A DNA stretch of 64,000 nt, taken from positions 149,190 to 213,189 of the forward strand of contig CANMJD010000004.1 of assembly GCA_947498155.1 (NCBI GenBank), written 5' to 3'. The notes under the pieces are model-generated. The model made no database searches, was not told where the DNA came from, and worked only from the letters and a program-made list of their open reading frames with translations. Source of the DNA: an uncultured Pseudoruegeria sp. GTDB taxonomy: Bacteria > Pseudomonadota > Alphaproteobacteria > Rhodobacterales > Rhodobacteraceae. This document shows positions 16,163-36,568 of this stretch, piece by piece; position 1 is the first letter of the stretch; every line of letters begins with the position of its first letter. The translations under genes were made by a program, and so were the position numbers.

Positions 16163-16172
16163 TTTTGACAAA

Positions 16173-16200
16173 AAGCCCGCCCCAGCGCTGGAGCGGGCTT
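16173..16200. terminator. Hairpin between the first imelysin gene and the di-heme oxidoreductase gene
   Basis: AAGCCCGC (16173-16180) pairs with GCGGGCTT (16193-16200), with a self-complementary CCAGCGCTGG between. The plus strand lacks a good T-run after it, so on the plus strand it is more likely to protect or attenuate the transcript than to end it; the first imelysin could thereby be made in excess of the downstream proteins. Confidence 0.5.
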
Positions 16201-16273
16201 CAAAATCGGTAAAAGCCTTAAGCCACACAAAAGCCACGGCCAATGCTGCGCCGTCGCCAGCCAGGTAGGAATT

Positions 16274-18843: not shown

Positions 18844-18844
18844 C

Positions 18845-19924
18845 ATGGCAACAACTGGACGTCGGCAGTTTCTGGGCGGGTTATTGGCCGCAGGACTTTT
18901 ACCAAAACCGACCTGGGCCGATGTTGGTACGCCCGCTTTTCTCGCCGCTGCCGCCACGCCGAATGGGCGCTTTGCGCTTTGTGGGATTGACGCAGCACTG
19001 AACCTCTTGTTCAAACTGCCTCTGCCCGCAAGGGGCCATGCCGCTGCAGGCCATCCGATCCGTCCCGAAGCGGTCGCCTTTGCGCGGAGGCCAGGTACAT
19101 TTGCAATCGTAATAGACTGCCGTTCCGGTCAGGAAACTGCGCGGTTGCAATCGCCCGATGGGCGACACTTTTACGGGCATGGTGTTTTTTCGGCAGATGG
19201 CAGCATGCTCTACACCACTGAAAACAACTTTGAGGCGGGACGCGGATGTATTGGTGTTTGGGATGTCGCCAACGGTTATAAACGTATCTCAGAGTGGGAC
19301 TCTGGCGGCGTCGGCCCACATGAACTCAGACGCTTGCCGCTATCGGATATTCTGGTGGTCGCAAATGGCGGTATTGATACACATCCGGATTCTGGCCGCA
19401 GCAAGCTTAATATTGCAACGATGCAGCCAAATCTAAGCTACATCGATCAGGGTCGCCTGATCGATCGGGCCGAGTTGCCGCCTGAGATGCACAAAAACTC
19501 GATCCGCCATCTGGCTGTTAGCACCCACGGCATAATAGCTTTTGGGATGCAGTGGCAAGGCGGCAACCCTGCCCCTGCAATGGTAGGCACCCATCGATTG
19601 AATTCTGATATCCGTTTGATTCAGGCACCGGCTTCCGAGCAAAGGCCGTTACAAGGCTATATCGGAAGCATTGCTATAGCCGATGATGGCAGTGAGATCG
19701 CTGTGACCTCTCCACCGGGCGGAGTGGTCCAGCGCTATGACACCAAAAACGCCACCCTGCGGGACACCAAACTCATCAAAGATGCGTCGGGCATTGCAAC
19801 AGGGCAAGACGACTTCGTCATCAGTTCTGGTACGGGACTTTTGACGCGCCTAAATGCACCCAGCAAACAAGAGATCGCAAACCGCGAACTCATCTGGGAT
19901 AACCATCTAGTCAGACTGGTCTAA
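18845..19924 (+). CDS. DUF1513 domain protein, Tat-exported beta-propeller
   Basis: 359 residues. The N-terminus MATTGRRQFLGGLLAAGLL carries a twin-arginine motif, so export of a folded protein is likely. The rest resembles DUF1513, a WD40/YVTN-like propeller found as the last gene of imelysin operons (for example in Pseudomonas). It starts one base after the previous stop. The role is unknown; a periplasmic partner of the imelysin and di-heme proteins is the simplest reading. A bidirectional hairpin follows. Confidence 0.85.
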   Translation: MATTGRRQFLGGLLAAGLLPKPTWADVGTPAFLAAAATPNGRFALCGIDAALNLLFKLPLPARGHAAAGHPIRPEAVAFARRPGTFAIVIDCRSGQETARLQSPDGRHFYGHGVFSADGSMLYTTENNFEAGRGCIGVWDVANGYKRISEWDSGGVGPHELRRLPLSDILVVANGGIDTHPDSGRSKLNIATMQPNLSYIDQGRLIDRAELPPEMHKNSIRHLAVSTHGIIAFGMQWQGGNPAPAMVGTHRLNSDIRLIQAPASEQRPLQGYIGSIAIADDGSEIAVTSPPGGVVQRYDTKNATLRDTKLIKDASGIATGQDDFVISSGTGLLTRLNAPSKQEIANRELIWDNHLVRLV

Positions 19925-19984: not shown

Positions 19985-21085
19985 CTACCCGTGCATTTCC
20001 GCATGGGCGGCTTCGAGCTTTGCCCAATCAAAAACAACACCCGTCCCCGCCGTCAACGGCGCCTGTGCCATGTGGTTTTTGATCTGCAGGGGCTGGGTCG
20101 TGTATTGGTCAATCGGGAACGAATGCACCTCTATCCAGCCTCCGTTCGGCTGCGACCCGACAAGGCTGACGTGAAGCTCCTGCATGCCATGAGAACAGAC
20201 CGGAATATTATGTTTACGGCTCAGTTCGGCAACCTGTAACCAGCCAGTGATCCCGCCACAGTTGGAGGCATCCGGCTGGATGAACCCCAGATTGGCTTGA
20301 TCAAATGCATATTCAAATTCATGGATCGTATGCAGGTTTTCCCCCATGGCTAGCGGGATGCTGGTCTGTTTGGCAATTTCGCCAAACCCCTTGTAATCAT
20401 CAGGTATCGTCGGCTCTTCGAACCAGAGGATGTCAAAAGGTTCAAATGCTTTGGCCGCCTTGATCGCCTCTTCCACGCTCATGGAGTAATTGGCATCAAC
20501 CATGAATTTCACATCCGGCCCGATCAATTCACGAACGGCGCAGATGCGGTCGATGTCTTCCTGAAGTGTGGGCTGGCCGATCTTGATTTTCACCGCGTTA
20601 AAGCCGCGCGCCAGATAGCCTTTTATCGAGTCCAGCAGCTTAGGCAGCGGGAAATTCAGATCAATGCCTCCGGCATAGGCCGGACAGTCCGGCGTCGTAC
20701 CACCCAGAAACTGCCAAAGCGGTTTTCCTGCCGCCTTGCACCGCAAATCCCAGAGCGCAATATCCACGGCCGAGATCGCAAAAGAGGCAATGCCCCCACG
20801 TGCGACGTAATGTAGGTGCCATTGCATTTCCTCGTAAATCTCTTCCACCGCAACAGCATCTCTGCCAATCAGGAAATTCGCCAGATCATGCTCAATCATA
20901 GCCACAATCGCACGACCGCCCTTGCCACCGGTATAGGTGTACCCGGTGCCTTCGGAACCATCCGTCAGCGTGATCGTTGCGGTGACCAATTCAAAATGGG
21001 TGTGATCCCCATGCTTTGCATCCGAGAGCACTTCGGCCAAAGGCACATCAAAGATACGGACGGAAACTTTGGCGATTTCTGCCAT
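19985..21085 (-). CDS. Enolase-superfamily enzyme, probable 3,6-anhydro-L-galactonate cycloisomerase
   Basis: 366 residues of the mandelate racemase/muconate lactonizing group. Visible catalytic features: KIK at 166-168, Mg ligands D197 (VDANY), E223 (FEEP) and E249 (MGEN), and H299 (SHGMQELH). From memory, the N-terminal block [16 protein letters not shown] and the [10 protein letters not shown] and NCGGITGW segments resemble the Vibrio anhydrogalactonate cycloisomerase closely. That enzyme opens anhydrogalactonate to 2-keto-3-deoxy-galactonate. An AldA-like dehydrogenase and a furanose-type importer in the same operon fit this. It could instead be a sugar-acid dehydratase. Last gene of the operon. 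Confidence 0.7.
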
Positions 21086-21086: not shown

Positions 21087-22082
21087 TTAAAGAGTCCCTT
21101 TCTTGGCGGAGTTTGCCACCCTGCTCTGGAATACGATCACTGCAAAAAGGAACCCTCCGCGGATCACCATCTGCCAATAAGCGCTGAGACTAATCTTTCC
21201 CAAGCCGTTTTCAAAGTTCAGAATGTTAAAGACAAGGCCAAGAAGAAGCGCACCTGCAACCGTCGATGCGACCGAACCCATGCCGCCGGTCAACAACGTG
21301 CCGCCAACAACCACAGATGCGATGGCCGAAAGCTCCCAGCCGACACCTTCCAATGGCTGGCCCGCGCCAAAACCCGAGGCCAGGAACAGTCCTGCCAGTC
21401 CAGCACAACCACCGCTAAGCACATAAACCAGAACTTTGGCCCGGGTGACATTCAGCCCCATCATCACTGATGCGTCTTCACCCCCCCCAATCGCTAACAC
21501 CGTGCGTCCAAGAGATGTTTTTTCTAGCAACACCCAAAGGCCGACCACCACTATTGCGGTAATCACAATGGTCCAAGGCAAAATCCCGAAGGCTTTTTCC
21601 ATGCCCAGCTTGGTAAAGTTGGAACCCCAATCGATCGAGATCGTCTGCGCACCGGAAATCACCAATGCGCCGCCTTTAGCCCCCAACATCGTCGCCAACG
21701 TGGCAATAAACGGCGGAATACGCATGGCTACAACAAAAAAGGCATTTATCCCACCAAGGGCCAACCCAACGATTACAGCCCCCGGCAGGGCAACCTGTAT
21801 GCCGTAGGGCGACAGGTAGGCTGCAATCACCGAGGTAAAAGCGGCGACAGAACCAACCGACAGGTCAATCCCACCCGTCATAATGACAAAGCACATCCCG
21901 ACAGAGATCACGATAAACATCGCGTTATAGTTCAGAAATGACGAGATATTGTAGGCCCCGCCAAAATTATCGTAGCGCATAAGACCAAAACCTATCAGCG
22001 CGATAAGAACGATCCAGACGCCAAGACTATGGGTGTTACCTTGAATGTATTTTCGTAGATCGAAAGCAGTAGTATCCAGCAT
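21087..22082 (-). CDS. Sugar ABC transporter permease (YjfF-like)
   Basis: 331 residues with about eight to nine membrane segments, BPD_transp_2 (RbsC) family; the conserved [10 protein letters not shown]-type motif appears as [15 protein letters not shown] near residue 70. It is the second permease of a four-component importer with the gene order of E. coli ytfQ-ytfR-ytfT-yjfF, which imports galactofuranose. It ends one base before the cycloisomerase gene starts. Confidence 0.87.
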
Positions 22083-22087: not shown

Positions 22088-23089
22088 TTACTCCTTCCGA
22101 GCCTGCTGGACGTAGACCGCCAGCACAATTATGCCTGCTTTGGCGATCAGCGCGACTTCGTCAGCAACGCCATTGGCCAGCAGGGTATATTTTACAAGTT
22201 GGATGATCACCGCGCCGAGGATGGCCCCGAAAATCGGTGCTTTGCCGCCTTGCAAAAGGGTGCCGCCCACAACAGCTGCCGCGATCGCATCCAATTCCAT
22301 AAGATTGCCAATCCGCGCCGCATCCGAGGCTGAATTGATGGCCACGACAATCAGCCCCGCAAGGCCAGACAAGCCAGCACAGATGACGTAAGCGCCGATT
22401 TTTACCCGTTTAACCGGAACACCCGACAGTTCTGCAGCCCGTTCATTCCCGCCCACTGCCAGCAGTTGACGCCCGAATTTCGTATGCGCCATCACCCACC
22501 AGACACAGACGGCAATGATCAGCACCAGATAACCCTGAAACGGAAGGCCAAAGATTTTACCCGTGCCCAGATAGCTAAAGGCCGGATTGTGAAAAGTTTG
22601 CAGATTGCCATTGGTCAAGACCAAGGCGATGCCGCGCCCAGAAATAAAGAAGATTAACGTTGCCACGATCGGCTGCACATTCAGAATACTGACCATTGCG
22701 CCGTTAAAAACCCCGCAAGCAAGCGCCACCAGTATCGGCACCCCGATGGACAGGATCAGCCCCAGTTCTGGGTTGGCCAGCGCAAAGTCAGAGGTAAAGA
22801 TCAGCGGCGCGAGCGCGCCTGACAGTGCCATGATCGCGCCGACACTTAGATCGATACCTCCGGTGGCAATCACCAAAGTCATGCCGACGGCAACGATTGC
22901 AATTGTTGCAACTTGGCTGATGTTCACAAACAGGGTCTGCGGATGCAGAAAGTTTGGCGTAAACAGCAAATTGAACAACAGGATCACCGCTAAAGCGATC
23001 AAACCACCGTGACGTGACAGCTGGCTCCAATCCATGCGGGTTAGCGCATTTTGCGATGTTGCAAATGCGGATTTATTTTGCGTATTCAT
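22088..23089 (-). CDS. Sugar ABC transporter permease (YtfT-like)
   Basis: 333 residues, RbsC-type inner-membrane permease with the motif [19 protein letters not shown] near residue 75 and about nine membrane segments. Its start overlaps the ATPase gene stop by 4 bases and it is followed 5 bases later by the second permease, so the two probably form a heterodimer as YtfT/YjfF do. Confidence 0.87.
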   Translation of the reverse strand: MNTQNKSAFATSQNALTRMDWSQLSRHGGLIALAVILLFNLLFTPNFLHPQTLFVNISQVATIAIVAVGMTLVIATGGIDLSVGAIMALSGALAPLIFTSDFALANPELGLILSIGVPILVALACGVFNGAMVSILNVQPIVATLIFFISGRGIALVLTNGNLQTFHNPAFSYLGTGKIFGLPFQGYLVLIIAVCVWWVMAHTKFGRQLLAVGGNERAAELSGVPVKRVKIGAYVICAGLSGLAGLIVVAINSASDAARIGNLMELDAIAAAVVGGTLLQGGKAPIFGAILGAVIIQLVKYTLLANGVADEVALIAKAGIIVLAVYVQQARKE

Positions 23090-24612
23090 GCCGCAGACTC
23101 CTCGTCGTGATGGTGCGCAATCGCAGCAATCAGGCTTTCTTCGGTAATGCCTGGGTTTTCCAACTCTTTGATCGAACGGCCATCACGCAGCACAACAATC
23201 CGGTCGGCACCTTCGACCAATTCTTCGAATTCGGAACTGATCAGCAAAACGCCAAGCCCATTGTCGACGTAAGAGCGAATGATGGATTGAATCTCGAACT
23301 TCGCGCCTACATCGACACCGCGGGTGGGTTCATCAAGGATCAACACTTCAGGCTCCAACGCCAGCCAGCGCGCCAAGAGCACTTTTTGCTGGTTGCCGCC
23401 TGACAATTCACGGATCGGCTGTTCCATGCCAGACGTCTTGATGCCCAGCGCCTTTATGAACTTCTCAACCAATTCGGATTCACGTTTGCGATCCAGTTTT
23501 CCCAATTTGGTCAGCTTGGGCAGCAAAGCGAGAGTCATATTCTCACGTACCGACATATGCGGCACGATACCTTCGCGTTTGCGATCTTCGGTCAGAAACC
23601 CGATGCCCGCTGCAATGGCCTCTGCCGGCGTGGATATCTGGCCCTTGCCGAGGTTATCAATCTGACCCGATTTCAAGGTATCCAACCCGAACAACGCACG
23701 CGCGGTTTCTGTGCGCCCCGATCCGAGCAGGCCCCCAAGCCCCACAATTTCGCCTTTGCGAACCGTGACAGACACATCCCTTAACCCGCGTGCGGTGGAA
23801 ATATGGCTGGCTTCAAACAATGCACTGCCAGGTTCGGTGGCTTCACCACCGCCCAGAGCGGTCATACCGGCTGCTTCGATTTCTGCTGCGTCACGACCCA
23901 GCATTTCAGAAATCAGACCCAGTTTGGTGGTCTCTGCAATCACATGTTGCCCGACCGTTTGCCCATCGCGCATGATCGTAACGCGGTCACAGATTTGATA
24001 GAGCTCATCTAGAAAATGCGAGATATACAGCACGGCCACACCGGCCTTCTTAAGCTCGCGTACAACCCCGAACAGAATTTCGATTTCCTGATCATCCAAT
24101 GAGGACGTCGCTTCGTCCATAATCACCAGTTGCGCATTGAGCGAGACCGCCCGCGCAATGGCGACAAGCTGCTGGATGGCTGTGGAATAAGAGCCGAGCT
24201 GTGCCTTAACATCAATGTCGATGCCAAAACGCTCTAGAATTTCGCGCGTGCGTTTATGCGCGGTTTTCCAGTCAATCATGCCCAGACGTGTGCGGGGCTC
24301 ATAGCCCATCATCACGTTTTCGGTCACGCTGCGCAGGGGTACAAGGCTCAATTCTTGATAGATCGTGGCGATGCCCGCATCTTGGGCTTCGCGCGGGGTA
24401 GAGATCGTCGAGGGGATGCCCGCGATCATGACCTCTCCGGCGTCTTTCCGGTAGACTCCGGTTAGAATTTTGATGAGTGTGGATTTTCCGGCGCCGTTTT
24501 GTCCGATGATGGCATGGACCTCGCCGGGCGCGATATGCAGGCTGGCATTTTGCAATGCAACCACACCCGCGAACGACTTTTTGATCCCGCTCATTTCGAT
24601 CAGGTGCTGCAT
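23086..24612 (-). CDS. Sugar ABC transporter ATP-binding protein (YtfR-like, two ABC domains)
   Basis: 508 residues, the fused two-domain ATPase type of RbsA/YtfR. First domain: Walker A GQNGAGKST near 35, Walker B LVIMDEATSSLD near 161. Second domain: a degenerate GLLGSGRTE in place of Walker A near 285, LSGGNQQKVLLARW near 400, and VLILDEPTRGVD. The ATG at 24612 starts right at the first beta strand. It lies 61 bases after the binding-protein gene, a gap holding a small stable hairpin. Confidence 0.92.
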   Translation of the reverse strand: MQHLIEMSGIKKSFAGVVALQNASLHIAPGEVHAIIGQNGAGKSTLIKILTGVYRKDAGEVMIAGIPSTISTPREAQDAGIATIYQELSLVPLRSVTENVMMGYEPRTRLGMIDWKTAHKRTREILERFGIDIDVKAQLGSYSTAIQQLVAIARAVSLNAQLVIMDEATSSLDDQEIEILFGVVRELKKAGVAVLYISHFLDELYQICDRVTIMRDGQTVGQHVIAETTKLGLISEMLGRDAAEIEAAGMTALGGGEATEPGSALFEASHISTARGLRDVSVTVRKGEIVGLGGLLGSGRTETARALFGLDTLKSGQIDNLGKGQISTPAEAIAAGIGFLTEDRKREGIVPHMSVRENMTLALLPKLTKLGKLDRKRESELVEKFIKALGIKTSGMEQPIRELSGGNQQKVLLARWLALEPEVLILDEPTRGVDVGAKFEIQSIIRSYVDNGLGVLLISSEFEELVEGADRIVVLRDGRSIKELENPGITEESLIAAIAHHHDEESAA

Positions 24613-24673: not shown

Positions 24674-25648
24674 TTAGTATGCTTCGTCGATGTGATCGGC
24701 GGCGTTGTCGATGGTGAAGACGCGGTCTTCAACTTTGACCCAACCCGGGATCTCTTCGCCAGCGGCATACCGCTTCATCACGTCACAAGCCAAAGGACCA
24801 AAGAAAGGCGAGCTTTCAACAGTCACACCCATTTTGCCATCGATGATGGCCTGCAGCGCATCGCGCGTGCCGTCAATGGAAACGATGGTGATGTCTTCGC
24901 CCGGTTTACGACCGGCCAGCTCCAGCGCTTGGATCGCACCAATCGCCATTTCATCGTTATGGGCGTAAACAACGTTTACTTCAGGGTGGGCTTGCAGCAG
25001 TGTTTCCATAACCTGACGGCCCATATCACGGGCAAAGTCACCGGTCTGGGACGCAACGATTTCAAAACGGTCGTCTTGCAGGATTTTGTCGTCAAAACCC
25101 TTTTTACGATCGTTTGCAGGCGAAGACCCTGTCGTGCCTTCCAGCTCTACAATGATGCCTTTGTCACCGGAAAAGTTGGCACTCAACCAATCCGCAGCGC
25201 GTTCACCTTGTTCAATGAAGTCAGACCCAAGGAAAGCCACAAAATGCTCACCAGGCTGGGCGACTGCTTCGTCAACGGAACGGTCAACAAGGAAGGTCGG
25301 GATGCCAGCGGCTTTGGCTTTCATCACGGCAGGAAGCAGCGGCTTTTCTTCGCGTGGCGGCAGGAACAGAACGTCGATGCCTTGGGCAATCATCGAGTCC
25401 ACATCGGCAACCTGTTTCGCCGCAGAACCGGCTGCATCTGTTGCGATCAGCTCCCAGCCGCAGGATTCTGCAGTGTCATGGAAGGATTTGGTTTCCGCAA
25501 TCCGCCAAGGGTTGTTGGATTCCATTTGTGCAAAGCCCACACGGTATGTGTCTTTGACTTCGAGTGGCGGGGTTTCCGCCATGGATACACCAGCGCTAAG
25601 GCCCATACCCAATGCAATCGCTGATCCCAGCAAAATACGACGTTTCAT
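24674..25648 (-). CDS. Sugar ABC transporter substrate-binding protein (YtfQ-like)
   Basis: 324 residues. Signal peptide 1-23 (GVSMA-E), then a periplasmic type I binding protein of the ribose/galactofuranose group. RVGFAQMESNNPWRIAETKS, ELEGTTGSSPANDRKKGF, YAHNDEMAIGAIQA and VSIDGTRDALQAI closely parallel E. coli YtfQ, the galactofuranose-binding protein. The ligand is probably a furanose or an anhydro sugar; the adjacent dehydrogenase and cycloisomerase suggest 3,6-anhydro-L-galactose. GGAGGAACTATT lies before the ATG at 25648. Confidence 0.9.
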   Translation of the reverse strand: MKRRILLGSAIALGMGLSAGVSMAETPPLEVKDTYRVGFAQMESNNPWRIAETKSFHDTAESCGWELIATDAAGSAAKQVADVDSMIAQGIDVLFLPPREEKPLLPAVMKAKAAGIPTFLVDRSVDEAVAQPGEHFVAFLGSDFIEQGERAADWLSANFSGDKGIIVELEGTTGSSPANDRKKGFDDKILQDDRFEIVASQTGDFARDMGRQVMETLLQAHPEVNVVYAHNDEMAIGAIQALELAGRKPGEDITIVSIDGTRDALQAIIDGKMGVTVESSPFFGPLACDVMKRYAAGEEIPGWVKVEDRVFTIDNAADHIDEAY

Positions 25649-25707: not shown

Positions 25708-27177
25708 TTATGCCCAGTTCAGATACAGGCTCTGCTTGCGCAGATACCCATCGAATCCGTATTTCCCGTCTTCGCCGCCAAGGCCGGATTGGCACCAACC
25801 ATTGTGAAAGGCGTGAACCTGTTCGCCATTGGCGCGATTGATGTAGATTTCACCAAAATTCAGCGCATAAGGCGTTTGCAGGATACGACGGTGATTTTCG
25901 GTGAAGACATAGGCGGAAAGGCCAAAATCAGTGTCATTGGCCAGCGCAAGCGCATGGTCGAAATCATTGACGCGAATGGCTGGAACCACAGGGCCAAAAA
26001 CCTCGTTGCGCACGACGGTGGAGTCGTTGTCTTTGACTTCCAGAACCGTTGGCGCGATCCAGTGCCCTTTGGTATATTCGCCATCCGTCAAGGGCCCGCC
26101 CTCCAGCAGAACTTCGGCGCCTTCGGAGACAGCGGCGCGGACTAGCGAAGCGACTTTGTCGACCTCGGGACCGCTAACCTTGGGGCCCATATCCGGGCTT
26201 TGCATCGGGTCACCGATTTTTAGCGCGGCTGCTTTTGCAACGAATTTGTCAAGGAATTCATCCGCAATATCCTTGTGCAGATACATGCGTTCGTTACAGG
26301 TACAAATCTGGCCACAGTTGGTAAAACGCGCCGTGATGGCGGCAGCCACAGCCTTGTCGATATCTGCATCTTCGAGCACGATGAATGGTGCTTTGCCACC
26401 CAACTCCAGCCGCAGAACTTTCATCCCTGCCGCACCGGCTTTGAAAATCTCTTGTCCGGCACGGTTGCTGCCGGTCATGGTGATCATCGCGGTCCCAGGG
26501 TGCTCTACTAGAGCCTGCCCGACAACTGGACCACGGCCCGTCACCACATTAAACAAACCCGCCGGAATGCCAGCTGCTTCGGCCAAGGATGCGATAAAAA
26601 GCCCCGATAGCGGAGTGATTTCATGGGCGAGAAGCACAAACCCGTTGCCCGCCACCAAAGCGGGGCCAAGCTTGCGCGTTGCCAAGGCCGCCGGATAGTT
26701 CCACGCGGTTAGGCCAACAACAACGCCATAAGGATGGCGGCGGATGTGGATTTCTTCGTCTACATTATCAGAGACCAGAATATCGCCTTCGATGCGGCGG
26801 GCATTGTCGGCAGCATGGAACAGGAATTCAGCCGTTGCGCCGACCTCACCCCGTGCCTGATCCAGCGGTTTGCCTTGCTCGGCGGTGATCAACTGCGCCA
26901 GTTCTTCGGTGCGGGCGACGATCAACTCTCCGAGCTTACGCACAATCCGGCCACGCTGCACCGCCGGCACCTTTGCCCATGCGGGTTGCGCGATTTTGGC
27001 GGCTTCAACCGCTGCGGCTGCGTCGTCAACACCGCCCAATGGCGTGGTTGCAATGATTTGCTCATTCGCAGGGTTCTCGACTTCAATAACGTCGCTTCCC
27101 GCGCCAGCGGTCCACTGCCCGTTGATGTACATCTGTGCTTTCAGCACGGTACCGGATTGAATATTGAAATCTTTCAC
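25708..27177 (-). CDS. AldA-like aldehyde dehydrogenase, possible 3,6-anhydro-L-galactose dehydrogenase
   Basis: 489 residues with the chosen GTG start at 27177, which has GAGG 5 bases upstream; an ATG 15 codons later (MYINGQW) is possible and the frame is open to 27306. The fold is the NAD(P)-dependent ALDH type: general base Glu in LELGGKAP, catalytic Cys in NCGQICTCNER, and the C-terminal FGEIYINRANGEQVHAFHNG like E. coli lactaldehyde dehydrogenase AldA. The coenzyme-binding K-P-S-E motif is changed to L-A-H-E (VLLAHEITP). As first gene of the operon with a cycloisomerase, oxidation of anhydrogalactose to its acid is a good hypothesis; another hydroxyaldehyde is possible. Confidence 0.8.
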   Translation of the reverse strand: MKDFNIQSGTVLKAQMYINGQWTAGAGSDVIEVENPANEQIIATTPLGGVDDAAAAVEAAKIAQPAWAKVPAVQRGRIVRKLGELIVARTEELAQLITAEQGKPLDQARGEVGATAEFLFHAADNARRIEGDILVSDNVDEEIHIRRHPYGVVVGLTAWNYPAALATRKLGPALVAGNGFVLLAHEITPLSGLFIASLAEAAGIPAGLFNVVTGRGPVVGQALVEHPGTAMITMTGSNRAGQEIFKAGAAGMKVLRLELGGKAPFIVLEDADIDKAVAAAITARFTNCGQICTCNERMYLHKDIADEFLDKFVAKAAALKIGDPMQSPDMGPKVSGPEVDKVASLVRAAVSEGAEVLLEGGPLTDGEYTKGHWIAPTVLEVKDNDSTVVRNEVFGPVVPAIRVNDFDHALALANDTDFGLSAYVFTENHRRILQTPYALNFGEIYINRANGEQVHAFHNGWCQSGLGGEDGKYGFDGYLRKQSLYLNWA

Positions 27178-27186
27178 GATCACCTC

Positions 27187-27201
27187 TTTGGTCGTACCAA
27201 A
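27187..27201. promoter_or_regulatory. FadR-subfamily GntR operator candidate
   Basis: TTTGGTCGTACCAAA is a perfect inverted repeat (TTTGGT, 3-base centre, ACCAAA) fitting the TGGT-N3-ACCA form bound by FadR-subfamily GntR proteins. It lies 10 bases upstream of the dehydrogenase start, where binding would block expression. A FadR-type gene lies nearby at 29152. Confidence 0.5.
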
Positions 27202-27234
27202 CTTTCTGAAGTTGTTGACCATACCGATATAATA

Positions 27235-27270
27235 GTCAACATATTTTTCAATTTTCCCAAATATGTTGAC
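27235..27270. repeat. Perfect 12-bp inverted repeat in the divergent promoter region
   Basis: GTCAACATATTT (27235-27246) and AAATATGTTGAC (27259-27270), spacer 12 bases. It stands about midway between the dehydrogenase and GMC oxidoreductase genes. Such a long perfect palindrome is most likely a protein-binding site or overlaps the promoters; TTGAC within the right arm could serve as a -35 for the plus strand. Confidence 0.55.
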
Positions 27271-27271
27271 T

Positions 27272-27303
27272 TTTGGTGCTATTTGCAAAATCTTTGGTGC
27301 TAT
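27272..27303. repeat. Two direct repeats of TTTGGTGCTAT
   Basis: TTTGGTGCTAT occurs at 27272-27282 and again at 27293-27303, 21 bases start to start, that is two helical turns. Each begins with the TTTGGT half-site that is also found in the palindrome at 27187. This phasing suggests cooperative binding of a regulator on one face of the DNA. Confidence 0.5.
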
Positions 27304-27427
27304 CATAATTGGAGTGCCCTACCAATAGGCACACCGTCGCAAAGCGGCGATTCGCGGGGAAGCCACTGCCATACGCAAACTGGGCAAAGGCAATTTCCGT
27401 GCTTTGAATTTCTGGAGGAAGAACCCC

Positions 27428-29050
27428 ATGACAACAGAGTATGACTTCATCGTTGCCGGAGGTGGCGCAGCGGGCTGTGTCGCTGCAGCGCGTCTGGTAA
27501 CCGATGGCGGTTACAGAGTCCTTTTGCTGGAAGCGGGCTATTCCAACAAACACCCTCTCCTCGATATGCCGCCGGGCATTTTCAAAATGATCAACGGTAC
27601 AAAATTCATGCGCTACCATAAAACGGTAGAGCAGGAGCATTTGGGCGGGCGTGTGCATGATATCCCGCAGGGGCACGTATTGGGCGGCGGATCTTCGGTT
27701 AATGCGCAGGTTTATATGCGGGGCCGACCCTCGGACTATAACGCCTGGCATGAAGAGCTGCGCGGCAGCAATGACGGTGTCGATTGGGACTGGCCTGCGG
27801 TGCTGCCGCATTTTCGAGGTATGGAAGATAACAACCGACTGCAGAATGATCTGCATGGCACCGGTGGACCGCTTCTGGTGTCTGATCCGGGCCATATCGA
27901 CGGGTTGTCGCGGCTGTTTGTGCAGGCCGTACAAGGATTGGGAGAGCCGTTTTCACCAGATTTTAACGGTACGGCCCAGCGCGGTGTCGGCTTTTATCAA
28001 TTCATGAACCGCCACGGTCGTCGGTCCTCTTCGGCCTATGCCTATATTGAACCGATCAAAGATGACCCGAGATTGACCGTGCGACTTCAAGCCGAAGTGC
28101 AGGAAATCATTCTGGAAAATAACGTGGCAGTTGGCGTCCGTTATTGCGATAAATCCGGTGATCTGCAAACCGCACGGTGCAGCGGCGAAGTGATCCTCTC
28201 GGCGGGGTCTTTGATTACCCCAAAACTATTAATGCAGTCCGGTATCGGCCCCGCGGACCATCTTGCTGAAGTTGGAATCCCTTGCCTGGTAGATCTGAAG
28301 GGCGTCGGCGAAAATCTTGTTGACCATCCTGAGGTTCCCATCACAGCCCGCGTCAAAGGCAAGGGCGGCTATTATAAACAAGGCGACGGTTGGCGGATGC
28401 TGCGCAATGGCTTGCAGTTCAAACTGTTTGGCAGTGGCCCGGTCACTTCGGCCGGTGTAGAGGCCGGTGCCTTTGTGAACCCCACTGATCCCAAGGCCGA
28501 TCCGACAATTCAGGCTTTTTGCGTGCCCATAGTCTATGTTGACCGCGACACCCGCCATCTGGTGGACGACGGCTACGGGCTGACGGTCACCACGGTGGTC
28601 GTAAAACCGAAATCGCGCGGGACAGTCCGGCTGGCGTCCGCCAACCCCAAAGACATGCCGCTGGTGTCTCCGAATTTATTGAAAGACAAAGCCGACATGG
28701 ATGCGATGGTCGAGGGGCAGAAGTTCTTTTTGCGTGCCTTCGAAACCAACCCGCTGGCCGATCAAGTCGATAAAGTCATGCTGCCCGAACCCGGAAAACG
28801 CAGCGATGATGACCTACGCGCCTATTGCCGCCGATTTGTTAAGACCAACTACCATCCGGCAGGCACGGCCAGAATGGGCAAAGACGGCGACCCGATGGCA
28901 GTGCTTGATCCACGGCTACGCGTGCGCGGCGTTGAAAACCTGCGGATCTGCGATCTGTCGGCTATGCCCGATATCAACGCAGGTAATACCCAAGCCCCTG
29001 CGATGATGCTGGGAGATCGCTGCGCCGATATGATTTTGGGCCGCATTTAA
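27428..29050 (+). CDS. GMC family FAD-dependent oxidoreductase (choline dehydrogenase-like)
   Basis: 540 residues. The FAD-binding motif DFIVAGGGAAGCVAAARL is at the N-terminus, GMC signature 1 in GHVLGGGSSVNAQVYMRG near 83, signature 2 in GSLITPKLLMQSGIGP near 265, and the catalytic His in TNYHPAGTARMG with NTQAPAMMLG near 520. It oxidises an alcohol with transfer of electrons to a quinone or oxygen; the substrate is unknown. It is divergent from the dehydrogenase operon and probably co-regulated through the shared 250-base region. The ATG at 27428 follows GGAGGAA. Confidence 0.88.
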   Translation: MTTEYDFIVAGGGAAGCVAAARLVTDGGYRVLLLEAGYSNKHPLLDMPPGIFKMINGTKFMRYHKTVEQEHLGGRVHDIPQGHVLGGGSSVNAQVYMRGRPSDYNAWHEELRGSNDGVDWDWPAVLPHFRGMEDNNRLQNDLHGTGGPLLVSDPGHIDGLSRLFVQAVQGLGEPFSPDFNGTAQRGVGFYQFMNRHGRRSSSAYAYIEPIKDDPRLTVRLQAEVQEIILENNVAVGVRYCDKSGDLQTARCSGEVILSAGSLITPKLLMQSGIGPADHLAEVGIPCLVDLKGVGENLVDHPEVPITARVKGKGGYYKQGDGWRMLRNGLQFKLFGSGPVTSAGVEAGAFVNPTDPKADPTIQAFCVPIVYVDRDTRHLVDDGYGLTVTTVVVKPKSRGTVRLASANPKDMPLVSPNLLKDKADMDAMVEGQKFFLRAFETNPLADQVDKVMLPEPGKRSDDDLRAYCRRFVKTNYHPAGTARMGKDGDPMAVLDPRLRVRGVENLRICDLSAMPDINAGNTQAPAMMLGDRCADMILGRI

Positions 29051-29151: not shown

Positions 29152-29859
29152 GTGCTGGGTCAGGAAGACAAAGGACGGGCCGCCGATCTTGTTGTGCATA
29201 AGCTGGCACAAAAAATCCAAACTGGAGAACTTGCGGACGGCAATCCCCTGCCCTCTGAACGCACAATGATGGAAGAATTCGGCACTAGTCGGACTGTGAT
29301 CCGCGAAGCCGTGGTGGCGTTGTCGAATAAAGGGCTGATCGAGGCCCGCCCACGCCACCGACCCGTTGTGCGCAAGCCGGGATATGATGCAGCCTTTGGG
29401 GCGCTTGAGAGTATTGTTGACCATCTGTTGAATGAGCCTGGCGGCGTAAGGAACCTTTTTGACACCCGTATCCTTATAGAGGCCGCTTTGGTGCGCGAAG
29501 CCGCGAAAAACGCCAATAAGGACGACATAGCGGCGCTGAAACAGGCTCTGGCACTGAACGAGGCCGCAATCCACGACAGCGAAGCCTTTTATGAGACCGA
29601 CATCGGGTTTCACCGCGTGCTGTATAATATCCCGCGCAATCCGGTACTCCCTGCGATCAACAAGGCCTATACGACGTGGCTTGCGCCCCAATGGTCGCAA
29701 ATGCCCCGCCTGCCAGAGCGCAACCGCAGCAACTATGAGGCCCATTGCGACATCTATGAAGCCGTTCTAATGCGCGACCCTGACGCCGCCGAAGAGGCTT
29801 TGCGCACGCATTTGCAGAACGCATGGCGGCAGGTGCGCGAAACCTTCGGGGAGCTATAG
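29152..29859 (+). CDS. FadR-subfamily GntR transcriptional regulator
   Basis: 235 residues. N-terminal winged helix (LPSERTMMEEFGTSRTVIREAVVALSNKGLIEARPRHRPVV) and C-terminal FCD effector domain with metal-ligand-type residues (DTDIGFHRVLYNIPRNP, HCDIYEAVLMRD). It starts with GTG behind AAAGGACATCATA. It probably controls the divergent dehydrogenase/GMC promoters, where TTTGGT half-sites are found, in response to a sugar acid. Confidence 0.88.
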   Translation: MLGQEDKGRAADLVVHKLAQKIQTGELADGNPLPSERTMMEEFGTSRTVIREAVVALSNKGLIEARPRHRPVVRKPGYDAAFGALESIVDHLLNEPGGVRNLFDTRILIEAALVREAAKNANKDDIAALKQALALNEAAIHDSEAFYETDIGFHRVLYNIPRNPVLPAINKAYTTWLAPQWSQMPRLPERNRSNYEAHCDIYEAVLMRDPDAAEEALRTHLQNAWRQVRETFGEL

Positions 29860-29915: not shown

Positions 29916-31412
29916 TCAGGTTTGCCTGCTGTGCCGCACGGCCTTCACACCGGAAACCACAATCGCCAGAATGCTGACAAAGGTGGCAAGAGCCAGAACC
30001 GCGCTGACCGGTCGGGTCAGGAACGGCTCCAGCGAGCCTTCGGACAGGATCAGCCCGCGCCGCAGGCTTTTGTCGAGGATTTCCCCCAACACCAGCCCCA
30101 GCACCAAGGGCGCCATCGGATAATTCATTTGCCGCAGGATGAAACCGACTGTGCCAAACCCCAGCATGACCCACACGTCAAAGGGTCGCGAAGCAATGGC
30201 GAAAGCGCCAACCACGCAGAGCACAAAGATAATCGGCAGCAGACGTTCACGCGGGATGCGCAGCACCATCAGCAAGGGGCTGGTCAGCAGGATACCGATG
30301 ACGGTCATCGCCAGTGCCGCCAGAACAATTGCCGCGACAACTCCGTAAACCATTCCGGCGCTTTGGATCATGATCAGCGGGCCGGGCTGGATGCCATGGA
30401 TCACCATCGCCGCCAACAACACCGCCGAGGGGGCAGACCCCGGAATGCCAAGGGTCAGCACCGGAATAATTGCACCGGGTACAGCCGCCGAATTACCGGT
30501 TTCCGCCGCGATCAACCCTTCCTTGGAACCTTTGCCGAACTGGTCCTTTTCCTTGCTGAACCGTTTGGCCACCGCATAGGACACCCAGGCGCCGATATCC
30601 TCGCCGACACCGGGCATCAGCCCCATCAGCGTGCCCGCGACACCAGAACGCCCAATGGTCGGCGAATAGCGCAGCAACTCGCCCGCACGCGGTAGGATAC
30701 GGCCTTTATTCTCGGCAATCATCGGAGTTTTACTGCCGGTGATATTGGACAGGATTTCCGCCAGCCCGAAAGCCCCAACCATCGCCGGGATCAAGCTAAT
30801 TCCGCCGCTTAGCGGTTTATAGTCAAAGGTATAGCGTGCAAAGGCAAAAACCTGTTCCTGCCCGACCATGGCCAGTATCAGTCCGAGAAACCCCGCGATC
30901 CAGCCTTTGAGTGGATCATCCATCGACGTCAGCCGCCCCGAGATAACCACACCAAACAGGGCCAGCCAGAAAAATTCAAAGGACCCGAATTTCAACGCAT
31001 AGCTTGCCAGAATCGGGGCCGTAAAAACCAGCAGCAAAACCCCTGCCAGCGTGCCAAACAAAGAGCCGACCGTGGCCAGCCCTAGGGCCTCGCGGGCGCG
31101 GGATTGGCGGGCCAGCGGATAACCGTCCAGCGTTGTGGCCGCACTGGCCGGTGTGCCGGGCATGTTCAGGATAATCGCCGTCCGGCTACCGCCGTAGATA
31201 GAGCCAACATACATGCCCAAAAGGGCGGTAATGGCAGTGGTGCTTTCCATCTGGAATGTCAGCGTGGTCAGCAAGGCCAGTCCCATGGTGGCAGTCAGAC
31301 CGGGCATCATACCAATGACAACACCCAAGAGCGTCGCCCAAAGCGTGACGATCAATTGGTCGGGGGAAAGGGCGTTGGCAAAGGCCGTCAGGATGAGGTT
31401 CAGATCAGGCAT
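29916..31412 (-). CDS. Tripartite tricarboxylate transporter, large permease TctA family
   Basis: 498 residues with about 11-12 membrane segments. Conserved TctA blocks: GVVIGMMPGLTATMGLALL near 30, MYVGSIYGGSRTAIILNMPGTPASAAT near 78, and GVGEDIGAWVSYAVAKRFSK near 270. Forms the transport channel of a secondary, binding-protein-dependent importer with TctB and TctC. Last gene of the hexuronate operon; uronates are the likely cargo rather than citrate. Confidence 0.93.
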   Translation of the reverse strand: MPDLNLILTAFANALSPDQLIVTLWATLLGVVIGMMPGLTATMGLALLTTLTFQMESTTAITALLGMYVGSIYGGSRTAIILNMPGTPASAATTLDGYPLARQSRAREALGLATVGSLFGTLAGVLLLVFTAPILASYALKFGSFEFFWLALFGVVISGRLTSMDDPLKGWIAGFLGLILAMVGQEQVFAFARYTFDYKPLSGGISLIPAMVGAFGLAEILSNITGSKTPMIAENKGRILPRAGELLRYSPTIGRSGVAGTLMGLMPGVGEDIGAWVSYAVAKRFSKEKDQFGKGSKEGLIAAETGNSAAVPGAIIPVLTLGIPGSAPSAVLLAAMVIHGIQPGPLIMIQSAGMVYGVVAAIVLAALAMTVIGILLTSPLLMVLRIPRERLLPIIFVLCVVGAFAIASRPFDVWVMLGFGTVGFILRQMNYPMAPLVLGLVLGEILDKSLRRGLILSEGSLEPFLTRPVSAVLALATFVSILAIVVSGVKAVRHSRQT

Positions 31413-31419
31413 ATCAACC

Positions 31420-31932
31420 TCAGGGCAACTGAATAAGGAACAGGGTTTGAAAGACGTAGCGTGTCGCAAAGCTGACCAAGAGCGCCAGCGCCGTGGCGAT
31501 CATCAAAATCCTCGGTCTATTGATCGTTTCGCGAGGTTTGTCCGCCGGGATCAGGATCAATTCAAAGGTGCAGATAAAGGCAAAGACAAAAGCAAAGGTC
31601 GCGATCAGATAGGGTACCGTGCCGAACAGGATAGCCCCATAGCCCAGTGTCAAACCCAGCGCCGCCAAGGCGCGTTTGCGCGTAATCGCCGCGCCCATGA
31701 CCTCGTTCCAGAAACTGAAGTCTTTTCCCGCGGTTCCGGCTGGACGAAAAATAAGGATCACCCCGCACATCGCCAGCGCGACCCCCAAAAGGCCGGGCGT
31801 GAAACCGGGCGTTTCATAGAGTGCGGCACCCCGTTCTGTGTAGCGCGGCATTTGCAGGGCACCCAATAGAACCAGCCCCCCCAGAAGGGTGAAGAACAGG
31901 CCCGACAGGCGATCCAGAATAAGATTGCTCAT
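31420..31932 (-). CDS. Tripartite tricarboxylate transporter, small permease TctB family
   Basis: 170 residues with four predicted membrane segments (about 10-30, 48-64, 90-125 and 142-160), the TctB fold. It starts directly at the hydrophobic region with MSNLILDRLSG; the frame open to 31974 upstream shows no homology. It is followed 7 bases later by TctA and preceded by the TctC gene. Confidence 0.88.
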   Translation of the reverse strand: MSNLILDRLSGLFFTLLGGLVLLGALQMPRYTERGAALYETPGFTPGLLGVALAMCGVILIFRPAGTAGKDFSFWNEVMGAAITRKRALAALGLTLGYGAILFGTVPYLIATFAFVFAFICTFELILIPADKPRETINRPRILMIATALALLVSFATRYVFQTLFLIQLP

Positions 31933-31998
31933 AGTTTTAACGATGTCTTTGGGGAAAGGTAGAGGGGCCACCAAATTGCAGCGGCCCCAACTGTTTGA

Positions 31999-32985
31999 TT
32001 ATGGGCGTGGAATACCCAAGGACTCCGGGTCCGCAGAGGACTGACCGCCGTCGTGCAGCAGCCAAGCGTTGGCTTGGATCGAAGGCCAAACGCGGGCTTG
32101 GGCATCATCGCCGCCATGGACGGTCATGATCGAACCACGACCGGAGGTGTATTCTGCCAAAGCGTCGGAATTGGCCAGATCAGCCCATGCCGCACCCATT
32201 TTCTCTTTGACTTCGGCAGGCACATCACCCGGCATGAAGATGCCAAAGTAGATCGGCGCAACAGGGAAGTCAGTCAGTTCAGAAGTGACCGAGGCGATAG
32301 AACCGACACCGGGAACCTCGACATTGGCGTCCGAAATGATCGCGATGGGTTTCAGCTGACCCGCCCGCAACATGTCGATCTGCTCAGAGATTAGCTGCGT
32401 TGTGGCATTGGTTTCGCCCGAGACGGTCGACAGTACCGCCGCAGACCCGCCATCATAAGAGGCATGGGTGTAGCTACCGCCAACCGCGCTGGACAGCGCT
32501 TCGATGGTCGAATGACCGGCAGAGTTAACGCCGGAAGTGCCGACTTTCAGACCACCGGCTTTCAGCGCTTCAAGAAAACCCGCCAAATCTTCGATCTCGG
32601 AATTGGCCGAGACGCTGATCACGCTGGCGAGGGCCGAATTCAGATACAGATCCCAATCCTTGATCGAGGTATCCATTTTGCCGGTCACCGCATAGGTGCC
32701 CAGATCTTTGGCCGCACCTGCGGTCCATGTATAGCCGTCATGGGGCGCATCCCATGCCGCCTGCGAACCGAGCGAGCCGGACGCGCCGGGCTGGTTGACG
32801 ACAACAACGCTCTGGCCCAAGGCCCCTTCGAGTTCTGCGGCAACAACACGGGTTACTTGGTCGGTGGCCCCGCCTGCCCCCCAAGGTACGATCAGCTGGA
32901 TCGGCTTTTCAGGCCAGTCGGCCAAAGCCGGAGTCGCAAGGGCAACACTTGCAAGTGCGCCGGTGATAAATGTTTTCAGTTTCAT
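31999..32985 (-). CDS. Tripartite tricarboxylate transporter substrate-binding protein (TctC/Bug)
   Basis: 328 residues. Signal peptide 1-22 (ALATPALA-D), then the Bug-type periplasmic binding protein: WPEKPIQLIVPWGAGGATDQVTR and GQSVVVVNQPGASGSLGSQAA are canonical. It catches an anionic ligand, likely a hexuronate, for the TctAB permease downstream. AGGGAGGAAATC precedes the ATG at 32985; the frame is open upstream but without a ribosome-binding site. Confidence 0.92.
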   Translation of the reverse strand: MKLKTFITGALASVALATPALADWPEKPIQLIVPWGAGGATDQVTRVVAAELEGALGQSVVVVNQPGASGSLGSQAAWDAPHDGYTWTAGAAKDLGTYAVTGKMDTSIKDWDLYLNSALASVISVSANSEIEDLAGFLEALKAGGLKVGTSGVNSAGHSTIEALSSAVGGSYTHASYDGGSAAVLSTVSGETNATTQLISEQIDMLRAGQLKPIAIISDANVEVPGVGSIASVTSELTDFPVAPIYFGIFMPGDVPAEVKEKMGAAWADLANSDALAEYTSGRGSIMTVHGGDDAQARVWPSIQANAWLLHDGGQSSADPESLGIPRP

Positions 32986-33022
32986 GATTTCCTCCCTCTG
33001 GAAATATTGGTTTTTGGTTAAT

Positions 33023-34057
33023 CTACGCTGTGGTTTCGCCCGCAAGCGTCCCCAGTCGTTCTGCTTTTTGTTGCGCCTCAATCGCCAGCCGCATCACGCG
33101 CAAGGTGTGGCGCTGCGGGCAGGCTGTTTCAGTTCGATTTTTGACGTCCTCCTTCAAGCGCGCGAAATAGGGCGTGCCTGCCTCCCTGGCGTCAAATCGG
33201 GTGTTTTCTGTGCCGTTCACCAAAAACACGTGATCCGTGCCTAGCCCGCCGCCAATATCCATATATTTGCGCAGCTCGATAAAGCCTTCGGTGCCCAGAA
33301 TGGTCAGTCGCCCGTCGCCCCAATTGGGCGCGGCATCCGGCGTGTACCAATCCAGCCGCACATAACCCTGCGCGGTAGCGGAGCTCAGGTTCATTTCGCC
33401 AAAATCCTGAAATTCAGGATGATCGGGGTTGTTGAAATTACCTACCGTCGCGCGGGTGATCTCTGCATCCTCGGAACCGGTGAAATGCAAAAACTGGTCG
33501 ATCTGATGGGTGCCGATGTCCCCCAAAATGCCGCCGTATTCTGCCGGATGCCAAAACCAGTCGGGGCGCATTTGCGCGTTCAGACGGTGTGGGCCGACAG
33601 AAAGCGTGTGCACGACTTTGCCGATACGCCCCTCAGCGATCAGCTGTTCTGCTTTGGTGACCGAGGGCACTTCAAACCGTTCAGAGAAATTAACACTCCA
33701 GATCCGGCCAGTTTCGGCAATGCAGGCCTCTATCGCGTCAAGTTCCGCATCGGTCAGGCAACCGGGCTTGTCCAGCATCACGTCTTTGCCGTGTTGCATG
33801 GCCCTGATCGACAGGCGCGCCCGATCTTTGGGGGCGGCGGCGATCAGGACCAGCGCGATGGTGTCATCTTCGAGGATTTCAGCAAGATCAGCCACTTGCG
33901 GCACATCTGGAAACCGTTTTCGGTAGCCCGCGGCGGGTTGCGGCTCCGCCTCGGTCCAATAGGCGGCAAGGGTGCATCCAGCGGCAATCATACCTTCGGA
34001 CATGCCATAAATGTGGCGGTGATCCAGTCCAATCGCGGCAAATTTCAAGTCGGTCAT
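33023..34057 (-). CDS. Gfo/Idh/MocA family oxidoreductase
   Basis: 344 residues. N-terminal Rossmann fold (FAAIGLDHRHIYGM replaces the usual GxGxxG) with the catalytic Lys in VMLDKPGCL near 95 (DKP rather than EKP), and the C-terminal GFO_IDH_MocA domain with DIGTHQIDQFLHF near 175-187, His possibly catalytic. Substrate unknown; its place after uxaC-uxuA-uxuB suggests an unusual uronate, uronate epimer or inositol-like compound. It overlaps its paralogue by one base. Confidence 0.85.
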   Translation of the reverse strand: MTDLKFAAIGLDHRHIYGMSEGMIAAGCTLAAYWTEAEPQPAAGYRKRFPDVPQVADLAEILEDDTIALVLIAAAPKDRARLSIRAMQHGKDVMLDKPGCLTDAELDAIEACIAETGRIWSVNFSERFEVPSVTKAEQLIAEGRIGKVVHTLSVGPHRLNAQMRPDWFWHPAEYGGILGDIGTHQIDQFLHFTGSEDAEITRATVGNFNNPDHPEFQDFGEMNLSSATAQGYVRLDWYTPDAAPNWGDGRLTILGTEGFIELRKYMDIGGGLGTDHVFLVNGTENTRFDAREAGTPYFARLKEDVKNRTETACPQRHTLRVMRLAIEAQQKAERLGTLAGETTA

Positions 34058-35106
34058 CAGACGGTTTTCACCTCCTCTTGACGTTTATTTTTGGCGGATC
34101 GTTCAATCGCATCGATCAACGCATGAACCTTTAGCGCTGCGCGGCCCGTGACACGCGGTGGCCGTCCGGCCTGCCAAGCGTCGGCAAATTCCGCGATCAA
34201 GTCGCGATGCCAGTCACAGGGGAAATCCATCGGGTCACTGCCCCCGCCGGTGCCAGTGACTTCGCCAATGGTTTCAACCTCGCCATTACGCCAATGGATC
34301 AACAGTTCGCCCGCCTTCAGGCGAACCGACGCGTTTTCAGCGTCTAGTTCCAGCGTCTCTACATCGCCGGGAAAGCTTGACGTGGTGGCCATGATCGATC
34401 CCAGTGCACCGGTTTCAAACACCAGACCCGCAGAGGCAAAATCCTCGGCTTCCATATCGTGAAACGGCGTGGTGCCGGTCAGGGCGGCAACGGTTTGCAC
34501 CGGTCCTGTCAGGCTCAGCATTAAATCCATCACATGAATGGCTTGCGTGATCAGAACGCCGCCGCCATCACTGTCATAACGCCCGCGTCCGGCGTGATCG
34601 TAATAGGCCTGATCTCGCCACCACGGCAGAGCGACCCGTACCATATGAATGCGGCCCAACCGGCCAGACTCAACAAGTTCCCGCAGCGCCACTGCGCCAG
34701 CACGAAAGCGGTGCTGCAACACGACGCCGAGCATTACATCGGCTTTTTCACATGCCTCAACAATGGATTGCGCACCCTGCAGGTTCCGCTCTACCGGCTT
34801 TTCGGTGAGCACATGTTTACCTGCCGCCGCCAGTTTGGCGATGATCGCTTCCCGCGCATTGGGCGGGGTGATCAGGATCGCACCATCCACATCAGGATCG
34901 GCACAGATCGCGTCAATACTATCATAGGTCGGCCAGCCGAATTGCGCCCCAACCTCGGCACGGCGCGCGGCATTTCGTGTATAAACACCGGCAACAGAGA
35001 CGGTTTCATCCAATTGGCGCAATGCCGCCAGATGGGGCTTTGACGCCATGCCAAGGCCGATCACGACAAGGTTCATTGGACGGGAGGCTTTATGCGGATC
35101 AAGCAT
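34057..35106 (-). CDS. Gfo/Idh/MocA family oxidoreductase
   Basis: 349 residues. Rossmann motif VVIGLGMASKPHL, EKP motif in LTEKPVERN near 98, and a C-terminal dimerisation domain with the His of TQAIHVMDLMLSLTG near 187. NAD(P)-dependent sugar or sugar-acid oxidation or reduction is expected. The ATG at 35106 has AGGAGG five bases before it; a GTG two codons upstream is less likely. It overlaps uxuB by 8 bases. Confidence 0.87.
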   Translation of the reverse strand: MLDPHKASRPMNLVVIGLGMASKPHLAALRQLDETVSVAGVYTRNAARRAEVGAQFGWPTYDSIDAICADPDVDGAILITPPNAREAIIAKLAAAGKHVLTEKPVERNLQGAQSIVEACEKADVMLGVVLQHRFRAGAVALRELVESGRLGRIHMVRVALPWWRDQAYYDHAGRGRYDSDGGGVLITQAIHVMDLMLSLTGPVQTVAALTGTTPFHDMEAEDFASAGLVFETGALGSIMATTSSFPGDVETLELDAENASVRLKAGELLIHWRNGEVETIGEVTGTGGGSDPMDFPCDWHRDLIAEFADAWQAGRPPRVTGRAALKVHALIDAIERSAKNKRQEEVKTV

Positions 35107-36568
35107 GGCCACCTCCTGCGAGGTCTTTGATGGCAGCCGCCATGCCAGCCTGCATCATCCGCGCCAGATGCGCCTGAACGGCAGACCCGAAAGCGGTATT
35201 TTCGGCTAGGTCTGTTGGCAGCAGATTGGGCAGGGCAAAAATGGCTTCGGTCAAAGCTTTTGCAGATGCTCCATGTTCGGCACAGACCGCCGCAAATTCC
35301 GCCGCCCGCGGGTCCTGCACTGTATAGCTGTCGCCTTGATCCCCCTGACCGGATAGGAACCGAATCCAAGCCGCTGTCGCAAAGGCAAAGGTGTCCGCAT
35401 CAGACCCCTGCGCCAATGCCACAAGAGCAGGTTCAAAAATCCGCTGCGGCAATTTCTGACTGCCGTCCATGGCAATTTGAAAGGTCTCATGGGCGATATT
35501 GGGATTGGTAAAACGCTGCAGCAAGGCCTGACGGTAGTCATCCAGATCAATGCCTTCTATCGCGCCCAAAGTGGCCGCCGCGGCCTTGATATGGCGATCC
35601 ACCACTGCCGCCAATACGTCGTCTGCCATGACATCGCGCACATAGGGTTTGCCAGACAGATAACCGCTATAGGCCAGCAGCGAATGTGCTCCGTTGAGCA
35701 TGCGCAGTTTCATGTTTTCAAAGGGCGTGACGTCTTTGACAAACAGCGCTCCCGCCGTATCCCACGCCGGACGCCCGTTGCAGAAATCATCCTCGATCAC
35801 CCATTGAGAAAAAGATTCTGTTTCGATCGGGGCGAGGTCTTTCAGGCCGGTAGCGACCTCTGTTTCGGCAATCAACGCTTCGGTGCAGGCAGGCGTAATA
35901 CGGTCTACCATCGTGGCAGGAAAACGGGCGTTTTCGGTGATCCAGACAGCAAGTGCAGGATCAACCCGCTGGGCAAAATCCAGCACGGCCGCGCGCAGAA
36001 GCTGCCCGTTGTTGGGCAGGTTGTCGCAGGACAGAACCGTAAACGCCTTTTGGCCTGCCTCCTTGCGTATCTGCAAAGCCCGTACAATCAGACCAATGGC
36101 AGACTGCGGGGCCTCGGGGGTTGCCAAATCCGCCGCAATCAGCGGATCATTCAGATCAAGCGCGCCTTTGGCACGGTCATAGCCATAGGCTTTTTCGGTG
36201 ATGGTCAGGCTGACGATACGAGTCGTCTCTGCCGTCATGGCTTGCAGAATTGGATCAAGCCCGTTTTTTGCCGCCAAAACCCCGGCGATTGATCCGATCA
36301 CCCGCATCTCGGGCGGCTGGTCGTTATCGGCGCGAATGACCAGATGGTAGCGCCCGCCTTGTGCATTCAGCTTATCCGCCAGCGCAACACTACGCAGGCT
36401 AACCCCCAGAATACGCCAGTCGCCGCCGGATTGGGCCAACACATCATCGGTATGGTCCGCCTGATGGGCGCGATGAAACGCACCGGCACCGATGTGGACG
36501 ATGCCGACACCATGGGCCTCTGGCGTATAGGCCCGGCTGGGGGACCAGAAAGAAGAAGTCAATTTCAT
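35099..36568 (-). CDS. uxuB: Fructuronate reductase / mannitol dehydrogenase family
   Basis: 489 residues, as UxuB and related polyol dehydrogenases. GIVHIGAGAFHRAHQADHTDDVL near 22 is the NAD-binding start of the family, and KLRMLNGAHSLLAYSGYL near 285 holds the catalytic Lys/Asn/His set. With uxaC and uxuA in the same operon the reaction is most likely reduction of D-fructuronate to D-mannonate. The start overlaps the uxuA stop (ATGA). Confidence 0.9.
   Translation of the reverse strand: MKLTSSFWSPSRAYTPEAHGVGIVHIGAGAFHRAHQADHTDDVLAQSGGDWRILGVSLRSVALADKLNAQGGRYHLVIRADNDQPPEMRVIGSIAGVLAAKNGLDPILQAMTAETTRIVSLTITEKAYGYDRAKGALDLNDPLIAADLATPEAPQSAIGLIVRALQIRKEAGQKAFTVLSCDNLPNNGQLLRAAVLDFAQRVDPALAVWITENARFPATMVDRITPACTEALIAETEVATGLKDLAPIETESFSQWVIEDDFCNGRPAWDTAGALFVKDVTPFENMKLRMLNGAHSLLAYSGYLSGKPYVRDVMADDVLAAVVDRHIKAAAATLGAIEGIDLDDYRQALLQRFTNPNIAHETFQIAMDGSQKLPQRIFEPALVALAQGSDADTFAFATAAWIRFLSGQGDQGDSYTVQDPRAAEFAAVCAEHGASAKALTEAIFALPNLLPTDLAENTAFGSAVQAHLARMMQAGMAAAIKDLAGGGHA

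Follow-up and report, generated by a model that had tools for sequence, protein, structure and literature searches.

A predicted two-operator divergon with helically phased sites, linked to a FadR/GntR-type regulator, between probable 3,6-anhydro-L-galactose operons of an uncultured Pseudoruegeria sp.

This study provided computational evidence that the intergenic region at positions 27178-27427 of the window (the whole analysed stretch of 64,000 nucleotides) is probably a divergon with two operators under one local regulator, the FadR/GntR-type protein encoded at 29152, whose sites lie on the same face of the helix and would probably support a repression loop; we give this reading a probability of about two in three. 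The region divides a minus-strand dehydrogenase-transporter-cycloisomerase operon from a plus-strand operon of a GMC gene and the regulator. A sequence-only reading had described it as a layered operator region, on which more than one regulator or a cooperative one would act. All the elements described there are present within 117 bases, namely a palindrome, an inverted repeat and two 11-base direct repeats 21 bp apart, and they are statistically unusual against composition-matched sequence, yet being unusual is not the same as being conserved. In the alignment of six close relatives, three conserved islands stood out: the operator O1, the motif GTCAA and the operator O2.

The minus-strand operon comprises an aldehyde dehydrogenase, probably a 3,6-anhydro-L-galactose dehydrogenase (25708..27177), a sugar ABC transporter made up of a YtfQ/RbsB-like binding protein (24674..25648), an ATPase (23086..24612), permease 1 (22088..23089; gene order conserved in relatives) and permease 2 (21087..22082), and an enolase-superfamily enzyme, probably a 3,6-anhydro-L-galactonate cycloisomerase (19985..21085). 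The plus-strand operon consists of a GMC-family FAD oxidoreductase (27428..29050) and the regulator with GntR and FCD domains, which is proposed to bind O1 and O2 (29152..29859). The dehydrogenase most likely starts with the GTG at 27177, after a ribosome-binding site that abuts the O1 palindrome. Comparison within the genus was uninformative, the closest GMC homologue there being only 62% identical. Positions 14675-19924 hold a gene set resembling, as judged by eye, an imelysin-type iron-uptake cluster.

Judged from protein likeness, both back-to-back operons probably serve the use of the red-algal (agar) sugar 3,6-anhydro-L-galactose (AHG), because the enolase-family protein shares 67% identity, across 357 residues, with 5XD7, a 3,6-anhydro-L-galactonate cycloisomerase of solved structure, and the best solved relative of the aldehyde dehydrogenase is 6J75, given as an L-AHG dehydrogenase in PMC10163077. 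By sequence, these first two enzymes (AHG dehydrogenase and AHGA cycloisomerase) are the same as in the AHG pathway of Vibrio sp. EJY3 and Streptomyces coelicolor, for which PMC9706016 names no regulator. The carrageenan regulator of Zobellia is of the AraC type (PMC5698469), and a literature search on anhydrogalactose repressors returned nothing relevant; the library searches made here yielded no described regulator of the present kind for the pathway. The agarase-associated Pfam family PF17992 (Agarase_CBM) had no match in the genome and none in any control either, which makes the result uninformative. A hexuronate role for the operon facing the region was rejected on the cycloisomerase match, the uronate genes being those of the neighbouring stretch 29916-39885. 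This separate minus-strand operon resembles one for hexuronate use and has its own GntR regulator, together with a tripartite tricarboxylate-type transporter, two Gfo/Idh-type oxidoreductases, a fructuronate reductase-like enzyme, a mannonate dehydratase and a glucuronate isomerase-like enzyme.

The predicted operator O1 is the palindrome TTTGGTCGTACCAAA (TTTGGT-CGT-ACCAAA) at 27187..27201, which abuts the Shine-Dalgarno sequence of the dehydrogenase gene and is conserved in relatives, with a mean identity of 92% in the six-relative alignment (background 23-32%). The 3.71-Mb genome has a single exact copy of the palindrome, and 0.005% of composition-matched random 250-bp sequences contain one. 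Regulator orthologues were gathered from genomes, and 80 surrounding loci, amounting to 1.45 Mb, were searched for palindromes. The exact palindrome TTTGGTNNNACCAAA was found 57 times, in 49 of the 80 orthologous loci, and four control palindromes gave 0 occurrences across the same loci. The search supported the earlier guess of a FadR-type regulator encoded at 29152. Among 111 non-redundant loci, 91 carried a site with 11 or all 12 positions matched.

The association between palindrome and regulator covers Rhodobacteraceae, Rhizobiales, Thalassospira and Poseidonibacter, and the palindrome accompanies the regulator despite changed flanking genes, lying upstream of the dehydrogenase gene, or of the cycloisomerase gene if the dehydrogenase is elsewhere. 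Fifteen more distant regulator homologues had no such palindromic site, and sampling of other classes and of the phylum found few regulator orthologues. Taken from sequence, the prediction that O1 and O2 are operators of the FadR/GntR-type (FCD) regulator is well supported. A genome-wide regulon search with 2 mismatches returned 198 sites and its reversed-pattern control 199, which is the chance level, so the claim for the host genome is confined to O1 and O2. A wider regulon is suggested for Mameliella and Pseudoponticoccus, where a GMC gene adjoining a second ABC-transporter operon is likewise flanked by the palindrome (L054:16724; L056:16742 and 18491; L057:16722 and 18479).

The regulator carries an N-terminal GntR helix-turn-helix (PF00392, 56.6 bits) and a C-terminal FCD domain (PF07729, 90.2 bits), each above the cut-off, as in the FadR subfamily. 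Its residues D150, H154, H198 and H220 do not vary among 11 orthologues and may correspond to the usual Asp/His metal-binding pattern of FCD domains. O1 has the form of FadR-subfamily operators, TKGT...ACMA with GT and AC 3 bp apart, following the consensus in PMC4494728.

The predicted operator O2, TTTGGTGCTATCATA (TTTGGT-GCT-ATCATA; 27293..27307), is a degenerate O1 that matches at 10 of 12 positions and by itself would be weak. Its centre is 106 bp from that of O1, and it includes the second copy of the direct repeat, which has 81% mean identity in the six close relatives, the adjoining CATAAT having 69%; CATA[AT] is conserved beside O2 in their alignment. The candidate promoter of the GMC-regulator operon, TTTGCA-N16-CATAAT (27282..27309, plus strand), is a weak consensus match with O2 within its spacer and -10. 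For the dehydrogenase promoter, the probable -35 is TTGACT (27234..27239, minus strand), whose complement GTCAA forms the conserved end of the left arm of the inverted repeat. This assignment was made because GTCAA reads TTGAC on the other strand and keeps a fixed offset from O1 (39-42 bp to its centre) in 21 of 22 loci; GTCAA is 100% identical in the six close relatives. The candidate -10, AACAAC (27211..27216, minus strand), is 17 bp from TTGACT, a weak match placed by its position.

Operator pairs were sought with a rule blind to helical phase, requiring two sites with centres 30-250 bp apart, both matched at 10 or more of the 12 positions and one at 11 or more. Such pairs were found in 57 of the 111 non-redundant loci, and the same rule gave 0 pairs with twelve composition-matched decoy palindromes; false second sites arose in 1.8% of shuffled flanks. 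The distance between O1 and O2 ranges from 52 to 203 bp over the loci (52, 64, 73-76, 84-85, 96, 106-108, 117-119, 130, 136, 150, 159-161 (164), 176 and 203 bp), the 106 bp of the host corresponding to ten turns. These spacings cluster at integral multiples of the helical turn (about 10.7 bp); those of 130, 136 and 164 bp, for example, fit whole turns poorly. A period scan over 5-16 bp peaked at 10.80 bp with a Rayleigh R of 0.79, and one value per spacing class (13 values) gave a null P of 4e-4. With clade-level values, picked by hand from the regulator tree, R was 0.74 and 0 of 5000 simulations were as high, a test that reduces, but does not remove, the influence of shared ancestry. The distances from either operator to the regulator start codon showed no comparable periodicity, R not exceeding 0.24 for periods of 10-11 bp.

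The phasing was also seen in held-out loci, namely those outside the pair set with only a weaker second site (9/12). There, 15 of the 18 weaker pairs departed from a whole number of 10.67-bp turns by no more than 1.5 bp, against 5.1 expected; the nominal P of 2e-6 is too optimistic, because the loci were treated as independent, though some share ancestry. No second site with at least 9 of 12 positions was found in 16 of the 34 loci that have a strong O1 but no strong pair, and therefore two operators are not universal. In the close relatives L044 (9599-10000) and L045 (9659-10000), which lack the GMC gene between the dehydrogenase and the regulator, O1 and O2 are still 107 bp apart. In Ahrensia, two operators 14 bp apart centre to centre adjoin the dehydrogenase gene (L091:9786-9820 and L092:9783-9817), and both loci have a third operator near the regulator gene. 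The motif, its link to the regulator, the pairing of sites and their helical phasing are direct results of these computations, and two predicted operators with phased spacing across orthologous loci agree with the earlier notion of a cooperative regulator.

The two sites could in principle be independent operators, each dimer controlling only the adjoining promoter without mutual contact. O1 adjoins its own gene and O2 sits in the other promoter, the fixed offset between GTCAA and O1 is as expected of a self-contained promoter-operator unit, and most two-site FadR-type divergons (71 of 100) look so in the survey by Suvorova et al. (PMC4494728). However, independent sites need no phase, whereas the spacing is phased over 52-203 bp, that is, over 5 to 19 turns, and in the held-out loci; this argues for protein contact between O1 and O2, as in looping, and we consider independent operators unlikely. 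Another factor binding the intervening DNA might also set the phasing; a shared activator or a DNA-bending protein, for example, would have to face both promoters and would likewise give whole-turn spacing, and the core is AT-rich (27203-27310, 30% GC). Spacings as short as 52 bp leave little room for such a factor, and the alignment has no third conserved element from GTCAA to O2, so that we regard this account as improbable.

A layered arrangement, in which additional regulators would use the inverted repeat and the direct repeats as their operators, has to be judged from these elements themselves. The perfect inverted repeat (27234..27271) has 13-bp arms and a 12-bp spacer; the 12-bp arms noticed earlier, GTCAACATATTT at 27235-27246 and AAATATGTTGAC at 27259-27270, are exact to 13 bp when extended. 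A perfect inverted repeat of at least 12 bp occurs in 0-0.25% of composition-matched 250-bp sequences, and a direct repeat of at least 11 bp, such as TTTGGTGCTAT at 27272-27282 (plus strand) and 27293-27303, in 0.25-3%. Despite this improbability, the inverted repeat is present once in the 3.71-Mb genome even with 3 mismatches allowed and is absent from all relatives examined, and it was therefore rejected as a second operator. The six close relatives have no inverted repeat longer than 10 bp and no direct repeat longer than 8 bp in the region. Lack of conservation in related genomes, which would refute the earlier reading, thus applies neither to O1 nor to the second repeat copy, but it does apply to the inverted repeat as a unit, whose left arm keeps only GTCAA and whose right arm has 25% identity, within background, and to the first repeat copy, which has 44%, near background. 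What was read as a 21-bp direct repeat is accounted for by the second copy, a degenerate operator of the O1 type. With the inverted repeat and the first copy private to the host genome apart from the -35 TTGAC, several layered regulators are very improbable. Statistically odd as it remains, the inverted repeat also gives the two strands the same AAATATGTTGACT, arranged back to back.

NanR is the best solved relative of the regulator and binds GGTATA direct repeats cooperatively (PMC8012715), so that assembly of the regulator on direct TGGT repeats was considered as well. Nevertheless, the conserved sites are palindromes and not tandem direct repeats, the regulator is without the 32-residue N-terminal extension of NanR (its residue 9 aligns with NanR residue 31), and its NanR family score of 195.4 bits is below the cut-off of 260. 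On motif, absent extension and family score, the NanR-type direct-repeat operator was rejected, and we give it hardly any credence.

In the preferred reading of a two-operator divergon, a dimer of the regulator would bind O1, which adjoins the ribosome-binding site and lies shortly past the start of the dehydrogenase-transporter-cycloisomerase transcript, predicted on the minus strand around 27204; a second dimer would bind the weaker O2 inside the promoter of the GMC-regulator operon. As O2 lies inside that promoter, the regulator would also control its own gene. By prediction, O1 lies just past the dehydrogenase start and O2 overlaps the spacer and -10 of the opposing promoter, locations that would both suit repression. 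At a distance of 106 bp, or 10 turns, O1 and O2 face the same way on the helix, and a tetramer or a pair of dimers would probably join them, closing a small repression loop over both promoters. The regulator would leave the DNA in response to a pathway metabolite, perhaps 3,6-anhydro-L-galactose, its acid or KDGal. Binding and repression by the regulator, looping, its oligomeric state and the sensed ligand are inferred. Two-operator repression by the Lac repressor, through looping, depends on helical phase; that protein belongs to an unrelated family, and its phasing was measured by experiment, not seen in the evolution of a natural divergon.

Among FCD-type proteins, the closest precedent found for repressor looping is Atu1419 of Agrobacterium fabrum, a tetrameric GntR/FCD repressor with two palindromes for which looping has been proposed; most GntR proteins studied are dimers (PMC7797058). 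Both systems, the present one by prediction, have an FCD-type GntR repressor with paired palindromic operators, a strong and a degenerate site, in a control region including the regulator's own gene. The motif sites here, too, give two predicted operators per regulator in one control region, and they are helically phased. Atu1419 differs in its palindrome (ATGTATACAT), its pathway (hydroxycinnamic acids) and its VanR group, and its sites, 190 and 109 bp apart, are known from one species, without cross-species phasing evidence. The double-site divergons of the FadR subfamily in PMC4494728 share the TKGT/ACMA palindrome with 3 bp from GT to AC and also have a pair of sites between divergent operons of which one includes the regulator. 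Suvorova et al. (2015) analysed distances by regression; in the accessible passages no helical phase is reported, and neither the regulator of 29152 nor its pathway was seen there. E. coli NanR, the nearest well-studied relative of the regulator, is also a cooperative repressor, but it uses close direct repeats through the N-terminal extension that the regulator of 29152 lacks.

We see even odds that the orthologous loci form a natural series of loop lengths replicated in evolution, one repressor and its operator pair being re-spaced over 5 to 19 turns in different bacteria with the phase kept, and that looping is the selected function. The loci offer natural operator pairs at about 5, 6, 7, 8, 10, 11, 13, 14 and 15 turns for testing looping by FCD-type repressors. 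The findings also assign an operator motif and its regulator to the probable use of anhydrogalactose, the agar sugar, in marine and soil Alphaproteobacteria.
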